The position numbers and the translations under genes are program-made. 11,985 bases of DNA. Origin: Actinomycetota bacterium (GTDB lineage Bacteria; Actinomycetota; Actinomycetes; Actinomycetales; Microbacteriaceae). Positions 222-10,266 of the stretch are shown here, in pieces. Where the stretch lies: positions 1 through 11,985 of the forward strand of contig WLFX01000016.1 in NCBI GenBank assembly GCA_009703545.1. Direction: 5' to 3'. The notes beneath the pieces were generated by a model. That model saw nothing but the letters and a program-made list of their open reading frames with translations, was not told where the DNA came from and made no database searches. Within the stretch, counting starts at the first letter, position 1, and each line of letters opens with the position of its first letter.

Positions 222-250
222 AAAAGGCGCCGAGCCATCGGCGCCTTTTT
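222..250. terminator. Rho-independent terminator, likely bidirectional
   Basis: A 12-bp perfect stem, AAAAGGCGCCGA (222-233) and TCGGCGCCTTTT (238-249), has a 4-nt loop GCCA and a plus-strand T run at 246-250. On the minus strand the same hairpin ends in TTTT. It lies 14 nt after the Bax-inhibitor-like stop codon. Its T run overlaps the first bases of the 46-bp repeat at 248, so before the insertion at 294-636 this hairpin would have sat directly behind the guaA stop codon and served both convergent genes. Confidence 0.9.
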
Positions 251-293
251 CTTATTCCCACTCGATCGTGCCGGGCGGCTTCGAGGTGACGTC
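248..293. repeat. 46-bp direct repeat, left copy (displaced guaA 3' end, att-like)
   Basis: These 46 bases are identical to 637-682, with no mismatch. Read on the minus strand they encode the last 13 residues of GMP synthase, [13 protein letters not shown], plus the TAA stop (252-254) and 4 downstream bases. Upstream codons of guaA are absent, so this is a detached gene end rather than a gene. Flanking bases differ on both sides of the two copies (T versus C at the left edge, A versus G at the right edge). A perfect, non-functional copy of a gene's 3' end placed 389 bp away is the expected trace of integrase-type recombination into that 3' end. Confidence 0.9.
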
Positions 294-314
294 AAGGAGC
301 CGCCTTGCTTTAAT

Positions 315-587
315 TCAGTTGTTTCTAGGCCCATTATCGACCAACAAAGCAAAACCCGCGATGGCAAGAAGAGTGACGCCAACGATTGGGAGAGTGGCAT
401 GCGCGTCTCCCATTTCCAGAAGTTGCGAAAGTGGTATGGAAAAACATTGGTTTCTCTGTCGGCAAATTGCTAAATCACTACCTAGCAGACCATCACAAGG
501 GGGACCATCGAGACACCACGATACCGGCAATAGGAAAAGCAAAAATGCAGCTCCAAGAAAACTGATTCCCCAAGTTTTTCTTGACAT
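315..587 (-). CDS. Small membrane protein with four cysteines, unknown function
   Basis: This is a 90-codon frame from ATG 585-587 to TGA 315-317. I do not recognise a family. The N-terminus is positive (MSRK), followed by a hydrophobic segment at about residues 7-24, a polar middle with Cys25, Cys31, Cys42 and Cys48, and a second hydrophobic segment at about 66-83 before the tail DNGPRNN. By the positive-inside rule the cysteine-bearing loop would face outside, where two disulphides are possible. There is no Shine-Dalgarno sequence; TACTAT ends 6 nt before the ATG, which would suit a leaderless transcript. It reads in the same direction as guaA, 53 nt after the guaA stop, and fills most of the DNA between the two 46-bp repeats, so it is the sole candidate cargo of that insertion. 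It could be a chance frame, but the hydrophobicity pattern argues for a real protein. Confidence 0.5.
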   Translation of the reverse strand: MSRKTWGISFLGAAFLLFLLPVSWCLDGPPCDGLLGSDLAICRQRNQCFSIPLSQLLEMGDAHATLPIVGVTLLAIAGFALLVDNGPRNN

Positions 588-593
588 GAAAGA

Positions 594-599
594 ATAGTA
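594..599 (-). promoter_or_regulatory. Candidate -10 box for the small membrane protein gene
   Basis: TACTAT on the minus strand fits the TANNNT -10 pattern and is followed by exactly 6 nt (TCTTTC) before ATG 585-587. That places the start of transcription at or next to the A of the ATG, the geometry of leaderless genes common in Actinomycetota. No convincing -35 box is seen upstream. Confidence 0.3.
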
Positions 600-636
600 C
601 CCGATAGATACTCACTATAAATCGCCGCTCAAAAAC

Positions 637-682
637 TTTCTTATTCCCACTCGATCGTGCCGGGCGGCTTCGAGGTGACGTC
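637..682. repeat. 46-bp direct repeat, right copy (3' end of intact guaA, att-like)
   Basis: This is identical to 248-293. It contains the last 13 codons and stop of the intact guaA plus 4 bases beyond it. It marks the gene-side junction of the putative integration; guaA continues unbroken to the right of it, so the insertion restored the reading frame completely. Confidence 0.9.
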
Positions 683-2203
683 GAGTACTACCCGGTTGAC
701 GTCTTTGACCTCGTTCGTGATGCGATTCGAAATCTTGGCGAGAACGTCGTAAGGAACGCGGGTCCAGTCAGCGGTCATCGCGTCTTCGCTCGAGACGGGA
801 CGCAACACGATGGGGTGCCCGTAGGTGCGACCGTCGCCCTGCACTCCGACCGAACGAACGTCGGCGAGAAGAACGACGGGGCACTGCCAGATGTCCTGAT
901 CGAGGCCGGCAGCGGTGAGTTCGGCGCGAACAATTGCGTCGGCGGCGCGAAGCACATCGAGACGTTCTTTCGTGACCTCACCGACGATTCGAATTCCGAG
1001 GCCAGGGCCGGGGAAGGGCTGGCGGCCCACGATGAGATCGGGAAGTCCAAGTTCGCGACCGATGGCGCGCACCTCGTCCTTGAATAGTTGCCGAAGCGGC
1101 TCGACGAGTTCGAACTGAAGGTCTTCGGGAAGTCCGCCGACGTTGTGATGCGACTTGATGGTCGCGGCGCCACTCCCTCCGCCGCTCTCGACGACGTCGG
1201 GATACAGCGTTCCCTGAACGAGGAATCGGACTTTCTTGCCCGCGTTTGCGGCCTCGGCGACGAGGTCAGCTTCTGCAGTTTCAAACGCCCGAATGAATTC
1301 GCGACCGATTGTCTTGCGCTTGGTCTCTGGGTCGGTGACACCCTTCAACTCGGCGAGAAACCTGTCCGCGACATCGATGGTGACGAGTCGTACCCCGGTG
1401 GCAGCGACGAAATCGCGCTCGACCTGTTCGCGTTCGCCTTCGCGAAGAAGGCCGTGGTCAACGAAGACACAAATGAGTTGGTCGCCCACTGCCTTGTGCA
1501 CGAGCGCCGCCGCAACGGCCGAATCGACACCGCCCGACAAGCCGCAGATGACGAGATCGTCGCCGACTTGCCCGCGGATTGCGGTGACCTGCTCATCTAG
1601 GACGTTTCCGCTCGTCCAATCCGGTGCGATCCCCGCGCCGTTCCACAGGAAGTTTTCGAGGACGCGCTGGCCATAGTCGGAGTGCAACACCTCGGGGTGC
1701 CACTGCACTCCGAACATCTTGGTTTCGGTGTTTTCGAAAGCCGCCACGGGGGTCGCCTCGGTCGATGCGGTAACGGTGAATCCGGGCGGTGCCGTCTCGA
1801 CCCGATCGCCGTGGCTCATCCAGCAGGTTTGTTGCTCTGGCTGTTCGGCAAACAAAATTCCGCCGGACACACGAGCCTCGGTCGCCCCGTACTCGCGCAA
1901 ACCTGTGTTCGCCACCTCACCACCGAGTTGCTGCGCCATGACTTGAAATCCGTAACAAATTCCCAAGACGGGAATGCCGAGCGCGACGATTCCGGGGTCG
2001 AGCGACGGCGAACCGGCTTCGTACACACTCGACGGGCCGCCCGACAGAATGATGGCGAGAGGCCGTTTTTCGGCCACTTCCGCCGCCGTGATGGTGTGTG
2101 GAACAATCTCACTGTAGACGTGCGCCTCGCGAACTCGACGCGCAATCAGCTGCGCGTATTGCGCCCCGAAATCGATGACGAGGACGGGACGGTGGGTTGT
2201 CAC
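641..2203 (-). CDS. guaA: GMP synthase (glutamine-hydrolysing)
   Basis: GuaA converts XMP, ATP and glutamine to GMP in the cytosol, the last step of guanine nucleotide synthesis. The 520-residue product has the usual length. The N-terminal class I glutamine amidotransferase domain (about 1-195) shows the nucleophile in GICYG (Cys83) and the His169/Glu171 pair in WHPE. The ATP pyrophosphatase domain has the P-loop SGGVDS (223-228), and the C-terminal dimerisation domain ends in KPPGTIEWE. The start is GTG 2201-2203, supported by GAGGTGG (2211-2217) 7 nt upstream and by a GTGA overlap with the stop of the preceding gene, which suggests translational coupling. It is the last gene of the gua operon. 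The 3' end is part of the 46-bp repeat, and no terminator follows directly; the probable original one is now about 390 bp further on at 222-250. Confidence 0.98.
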
Positions 2204-10104: not shown

Positions 10105-10207
10105 CGCCCGGTTCAACGGTAAACCTCTACAGATTGAGTCGCAGCTTGACTAATTTGTCGTGACTAAACGATTGATGGGTCTGGGAAAACTGATACCCGC
10201 TTAGACA

Positions 10208-10255
10208 ACACGAAAGCGTGGCCCCGAGATTCCTCTCGGGGCCACGCATTCGTGT
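10208..10255. terminator. Large hairpin between convergent livF and substrate-binding protein genes
   Basis: A perfect 14-bp stem, GCGTGGCCCCGAGA (10216-10229) with TCTCGGGGCCACGC (10234-10247), closes a TTCC loop. After one A-A mismatch it extends by 7 more pairs, ACACGAA (10208-10214) with TTCGTGT (10249-10255). There is no long T run on either strand. Its position between two convergent stop codons (10104 and 10267) and its symmetry suit a bidirectional terminator for both transcripts. Confidence 0.8.
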
Positions 10256-10266
10256 TTGGTGGTGAA

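Follow-up and report, generated by a model that had tools for sequence, protein, structure and literature searches.

A 389-bp insertion between two copies of the guaA 3' end in a member of the Microbacteriaceae: a possible integrase-free cassette moved in trans

The window analyzed here, the whole stretch of 11,985 bp, makes up all of contig C56 in a draft genome from the family Microbacteriaceae (1.0 Mb, 147 contigs, 65% complete). Near its left end, the minus strand carries guaA (641 to 2203), an uninterrupted reading frame of 520 aa with GMP synthase domains. A hairpin at 222 to 249 sits between guaA and the upstream plus-strand gene; its 12-bp arms are 100% complementary and enclose a 4-nt loop, and there are A and T tracts at its foot. 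By its form, this hairpin would be a terminator for both directions, and it is absent from the results of our terminator scan, which requires a T run after the stem and here meets the T run in the stem. By eye, an identical hairpin adjoins the guaA stop codon in G003, G011, G012, G013, and G014, all members of the same genus; we refer to the hairpin as native.

Between the native hairpin and guaA, the end of the gene occurs a second time. A repeat search of the window aligned 248 to 296 with 637 to 685 as direct repeats identical at 48 of 49 nt, and the original prediction of a perfect 46-bp duplication is borne out by exact contiguous identity of 248 to 293 with 637 to 682. The two exact copies are separated by 343 bp (294 to 636), and the copy-to-copy spacing, which we take as the unit size, is 389 bp. 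The right copy (637 to 685, minus strand) is the functional guaA 3' end, as had been claimed, because the gene with its GMP synthase domains spans 641 to 2203 on that strand. The left copy (248 to 296, minus strand) is an orphan that, by its geometry, would be half of an att site. The shared block begins 4 bases outside the guaA stop codon and extends 42 bases into the gene; in an attL/attR pair, such a block is the stretch where attP and attB agree. Chance can be rejected as the source of the repeat, since the next-longest direct repeats among those listed for the window reach only 25 nt at no more than 76% identity. We also rejected a target duplication made by a transposon, given that 46 bp of gene end is far too long for one; in the corresponding test for an insertion sequence or MITE, no inverted repeat of at least 8 nt was found to pair the two ends of the interior. 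The window holds no tRNA gene, and the target gene is guaA.

The 15 available genomes of the genus, our own and 14 others, were searched with the first 1,000 positions of the window. The locus is present in 12 of these 14 congeners (G004 and G008 gave no match), and all 12 carry a single guaA end, that is, an empty site. In each of them, the left part of the window (to 296 or 298) and the guaA part (from 637 to 641 onward) match overlapping stretches of one contig. A hairpin resembling that at 222 to 249 lies just before the guaA end in most congeners, with a different sequence in G001 and G002 (by eye). The 389 bp are thus a lineage-specific insertion, which upholds the claim of an attL/attR-like insertion at the guaA 3' end and gives a positive answer to the proposed search of relatives for empty sites. 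The parallel search for a longer island between the same repeats found none in the 12 congeners with the locus, nor any other cargo at their guaA site; a different cargo does occupy the guaA site of a second genus within the family.

Could the insertion have arisen during assembly, or from a chimera of strains? The draft is fragmented and incomplete, and no more than 247 bp separate the left repeat copy from the end of the contig, as might be expected of such an artefact. Against it, both flanks match the congeners in the same arrangement (the left flank is 90 to 91% identical in the nearest species, G003, G009, and G011), a repeat on both sides of the interior needs real DNA of such form, be it integrated or circular, and a comparable element is found in G141, a 99% complete genome, on a 389-kb contig. 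We consider an artefact very improbable.

The guaA ends of the 12 congeners differ from the element copy at 2 to 7 of 42 positions. Because the element copy equals the guaA end of its own genome and differs from those of the congeners, the element was probably derived from, or adapted to, the same species. This identity over 46 bp, closer than the match with any of the 12 congeners and suggestive of a conspecific source, would also suit a history in which DNA of a related strain, with the element already in place, was taken up and incorporated by homologous recombination; the repeat would then be a relic of an older integration elsewhere. Such a history merely moves the site-specific event to another strain, and we think it improbable, if somewhat less so than an artefact. 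The original prediction took the perfect orphan copy to suggest a recent event. That argument is weak: by simple arithmetic, zero differences in 46 bp bound the divergence of the repeats only to less than about 6 to 7%, and the closest congener itself shows only 2 differences in 42.

The 340-bp interior of the element (297 to 636) has a G+C content of 45.9%, versus 55.7% for the window, and its halves differ as well (about 49% at 301 to 450 and about 43% at 451 to 600). DNA searches of the genus found nothing at E <0.001 other than the interior itself (the best other match covers 37 bases, E 0.0026), so that the proposed search for it elsewhere yielded nothing, and it has no match in phages. 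Its only credible open reading frame (315 to 587, minus strand, with an ATG start) lies on the guaA strand and is a candidate cargo gene of 90 aa. The predicted product has two hydrophobic segments, at approximately residues 4 to 29 and 62 to 87, and four cysteines, at positions 25, 31, 42, and 48. An ATG frame of at least 90 aa appeared in 32 of 2,000 dinucleotide shuffles of the interior (P = 0.016). The frame begins 53 bp past the guaA stop codon and before the native hairpin, and based on this position we infer that guaA transcription should continue into it. By eye, there is no clear Shine-Dalgarno sequence ahead of the frame, and a TACTAT motif located 6 nt ahead of the start codon could act as the -10 element of a leaderless transcript. 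A promoter scan found no sigma-70 consensus promoter, and a weak terminator-like site lies inside the frame at 368 to 355 on the minus strand (2 sites were found versus 1.3 expected).

The 90-aa product matches no family in Pfam, PHROGs, NCBIfam, or PADLOC. Among the 398 family genomes, 23 gave matches at E values up to 0.1, none of them convincing; the best non-self match (E 0.004) and its like consist of partial stretches in other frames. In IMG/VR, 5 stretches fit the peptide pattern and none was confirmed; in GTDB genome contigs, 65 stretches matched, of which a single one was confirmed; it covers 24 residues in a MAG of the Lachnospiraceae, and we take it to be chance. A protein search of plasmids returned no match. 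The plus-strand frame at 268 to 597 has one weak PHROG match (phrog_15242, E 0.0031, 20 residues, unknown function). As RNA, the interior folds no better than its shuffles (z = -0.04), and no Rfam family exceeds its threshold, the best subthreshold match being STnc40 on the hairpin (E 0.23 and 0.35). As to an integron gene cassette, Rfam offers nothing above threshold, the fold is ordinary, and both tyrosine recombinase genes of the assembly (PF00589) match Xer models better than an integron integrase.

Does the element, or its host, encode the enzyme that would have moved it? Neither of the two longest interior frames (90 and 109 aa) matches an integrase family, in agreement with the original prediction, and the element thus lacks the recognizable integrase of its own that would mark an autonomous island. 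The assembled part of the genome (65% complete) contains two tyrosine recombinase genes, and both are Xer-like: the first is XerD by NCBIfam (344 bits; cut-off, 329.6), and the second best fits XerC at 307.9 bits, below the cut-off of 335.15. We read the neighbors of one as ParA and CTP synthase and those of the other as an MMPL-type transporter and a peptidase. The guaA-targeting tyrosine recombinase that was to be sought in this genome was not found in its assembled part.

Across the genus, where the recombinase search was limited to the tyrosine type, PF00589 is matched in 14 of the 15 genomes. In G001, G005, and G012 there are further tyrosine integrases at sites other than guaA, with no tRNA in the stretches around them; integrase N-terminal domains are present in those of G001 and G012, the two that were scanned (the G005 sequence has masked bases). 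Because these congeners carry additional tyrosine integrases, it is possible that potential helper integrases circulate in the genus. The integrases of G012 (L205, G012:C161) and G005 (L206, G005:C6) resemble each other, and their neighbors, which we read as a cytosine methyltransferase and a helicase/phospholipase-D-like protein, suggest defense-carrying islands. A guaA-specific integrase was found neither in the genus nor in the guaA-downstream stretches of relatives (a crude motif, 71 of 81 stretches, at least 5 kb), and any helper for the cassette is hypothetical for this reason. The motif had two matches in the 71 stretches, one a 385-residue frame close to guaA in G343 and the other a frame of PurH-like appearance in L125, and neither was counted as an integrase past a guaA end.

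To what extent is the guaA end occupied elsewhere? An exact guaA-end pattern was present in 380 of the 398 family genomes, 4 of which had more than one copy: our own (G000), G141, G122, and G343. The exact pattern misses decayed copies, as it did that of G315, and the counts of insertions given here are lower bounds. In G141, an orphan guaA end lies 1,545 bp beyond guaA, identical at 39 of 41 positions before the similarity ends. The intervening 1.5-kb element (L089:5370-6960, G141:C2) has its genes opposite to guaA and its own hairpin adjoining guaA. It encodes a helix-turn-helix protein (HTH_3, E 7e-10), a 73-aa frame that to our reading resembles an antitoxin, and a Fic protein (PF02661, E 2.6e-16) that is also a PADLOC candidate (PDC-S04, E 4.6e-59); by reading, none of its frames of at least 45 aa is integrase-like. 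The same element is found at 79% identity in G315 (L096), of the same genus as G141, with an orphan copy 1,531 bp away that is identical at 24 of 25 positions before ending. Two of the eight genomes of that genus carry it, and the remaining six have a single guaA-end copy. Over 36 positions, the orphan copies score 34 (G141) and 28 (G315), and the occupied sites of the family thus form a series of decay from our own (46 of 46) through G141 to G315. A full cargo module with both ends preserved, as in G141 and G315, argues for a cassette.

The remaining multicopy family genomes were rejected as carriers of elements. In G122, the guaA region is duplicated in inverted orientation close to the end of a 3.17-Mb contig (L090/L091, G122:C1 ends), probably an assembly artefact, and G343 has two different guaA ends on two contigs. 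One of these (L099, G343:C133), near which lies the 385-residue frame that fits the tyrosine-recombinase motif, represents either contamination or a guaA-bearing mobile element. In the order, the pattern was found in 335 of 396 genomes scanned (34 of the same family, our own included), and besides our own, G481 and G756 had more than one copy. G481 was rejected as a contig-edge overlap. In G756, an orphan guaA end (27 of 29 identical) is 98 bp away from the true one, and about 69 bp separate the two; so short an insertion has no room for a gene, which points to a remnant or scar. Its short interior (L176/L178, G756:C1:1380748-1380868) contains, by eye, a near-perfect inverted repeat, CCCCACGAAGT ... 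ACTTCGCGGGG. A more sensitive scan past guaA covered 79 stretches of 484 to 17,399 bases from 78 genomes, an 80th stretch being too short. It flagged a single stretch, that of G315; its filter passed over G141, whose element is known from the exact pattern. No integrase-bearing guaA island was found among relatives in the stretches examined. In viral contigs, a long guaA-end pattern had no match and a short one had three (L112, L113, and L114). L113 carries a full-length guaA. L112 (7523-7665, IMG/VR) has, next to genes for phage structural proteins, an orphan piece of the guaA 3' end some 47 codons long, and L114 (IMG/VR), an unrelated viral contig, has the 3' part of guaA with a phage-type integrase immediately beyond; both are consistent with phages that have their attachment site at the guaA end.

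The guaA 3' end is a known island site, as the original prediction had stated. GIsul2 integrates there at the core GAGTGGGA by means of an integrase encoded in the island (PMC9376610). This 8-bp core is present in both repeat copies of the window, at 256 to 263 and 645 to 652 on the minus strand. In the same study, the GIsul2 integrase also moved the CR2-sul2 unit, which has no int gene and lies between two att sites with the same core, in recA-deficient Escherichia coli (PMC9376610); by analogy, this sets an experimental precedent for the mobilization of an int-less unit at guaA. Tn5801-like islands likewise target the guaA 3' end and have direct repeats of the gene end, of 11 bp (PMC4844618). 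Both kinds of island share their target and their gene-end repeats with our element. They differ in spanning kilobases, in encoding their own integrase, and in their shorter repeats (19 bp for GIsul2), whereas the present element comprises 389 bp with a 46-bp repeat and no integrase match. For the interior of our element, the collections searched held no convincing homologue. The Fic element of G141 and G315 has in common with ours the site, an orphan guaA end and its core region, the lack of a recognizable integrase, and a partial distribution in its genus; it differs in its length (1.5 kb), its helix-turn-helix, antitoxin-like, and Fic genes and their orientation, its own hairpin, and its shorter and more decayed repeat.

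A second point of comparison is provided by the additive flexible islands of streamlined aquatic bacteria. The units of fGI-2 in "Candidatus Methylopumilus" range from 330 bp to 42 kb and from 1 to 63 coding sequences, with 3'-end repeats at a tRNA gene (PMC10872708). Two further sources describe gene cassettes with tell-tale tRNA repeats in fGI1 of "Candidatus Actinomarinales" (PMC7771536) and cassettes at a tRNA in fGI1 of Alteromonas australica (PMC4119200). Our element has the small cargo unit with a direct repeat of the target 3' end at each side, as in the one-gene units of Methylopumilus, and its cargo is without a family, in keeping with the large fraction of unknown cargo in such islands. 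It differs in that those islands target tRNA genes and grow by repeated insertion, whereas here the target is a protein gene and the insertion single. In total, the element is of a known kind, at a protein gene and near the reported lower size limit; it is unusually small, and by analogy the guaA islands and the additive islands appear closest in kind. The original view that a very small nonautonomous cassette would be unusual was too strong, considering the published one-gene units from 330 bp at a tRNA site (PMC10872708). We found no literature on a guaA attachment site in Microbacteriaceae.

Two readings of the insertion deserve the most weight. One is a deletion remnant: an integrase-bearing island or prophage at guaA would have lost nearly everything, leaving 340 bp in which the 90-aa frame is an end gene or a product of chance. 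In its favor, islands with an integrase are known at guaA, to which the viral contig L114 may be added; G756 has a guaA-end insertion without room for a gene; and the halves of the interior differ somewhat in G+C content. Against it stand the lack of an integrase family match in the interior frames, the lack of a longer guaA island in the 12 congeners, the 78 of 79 guaA-downstream stretches that went unflagged, and the need for a deletion that spared both perfect end repeats. We regard a remnant as a substantial possibility, one that falls short of the favored reading.

The favored reading, to which we assign a probability of about 0.5, is that of a small nonautonomous integrative element at the guaA attachment site, integrated by an integrase supplied in trans. 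We propose that a circular form of the cassette carried the last 46 to 49 bp or so of guaA as its attP, and that a tyrosine recombinase from elsewhere, such as the guaA-specific integrase of a phage or an integrative element, acted in trans, joining this circle to the 3' end of guaA by recombination at GAGTGGGA or close to it. The outcome would be a rebuilt guaA with an orphan copy left on the far side. The cargo would be a single gene for a small membrane protein, oriented like guaA and situated between the guaA stop codon and the native hairpin, and it would be read from the guaA transcript, making a promoter of its own unnecessary.

We favor this cassette model based on several observations: the perfect 46-bp gene-end repeat together with the empty sites of the congeners; the GIsul2 core within the repeat, given that the GIsul2 integrase also moves an int-less subunit; the deviating composition of the interior, with a reading frame longer than those of nearly all shuffles; the presence at this site, in G141 and G315, of a different element that lacks a recognizable integrase; and the further tyrosine integrases of the congeners along with the phage-type integrase beyond the guaA end in L114. 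It is preferred over a remnant because the frame is open, in a spot that is probably transcribed, and because the ends are perfect. Several points count against the cassette model. No second copy of the interior was found, and hence there is no sign of repeated movement; the 98-bp insertion of G756 fits a remnant; the 90-aa frame has no homologue and a P value of only 0.016; and no sigma-70-like promoter was found for it, while a terminator-like site lies inside it.

If the cassette model holds, the locus would be a near-minimal case, one att site and one gene, of gene gain at a fixed site in small-genome bacteria with few integrases, and one with clean empty sites in relatives. Dependence on a helper is directly testable, as the att sequence is known to the base. 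The same site bears at least one other element in the family without a recognizable integrase and with a candidate defense cargo. We speculate, with some doubt, that in some small-genome actinobacteria of the family the guaA 3' end is a docking site for integrase-free mini-elements moved by the integrases of passing phages or islands. Such elements would be satellites made of an att site and one cargo module (0.39 kb here, 1.5 kb with a candidate antiphage Fic protein elsewhere), the cargo here being read from the guaA transcript.

Elsewhere in the window, a strong 23-bp inverted repeat (10207 to 10256; 4-nt loop, 96% complementary) lies between convergent ABC-transporter and binding-protein genes and looks like a shared terminator.
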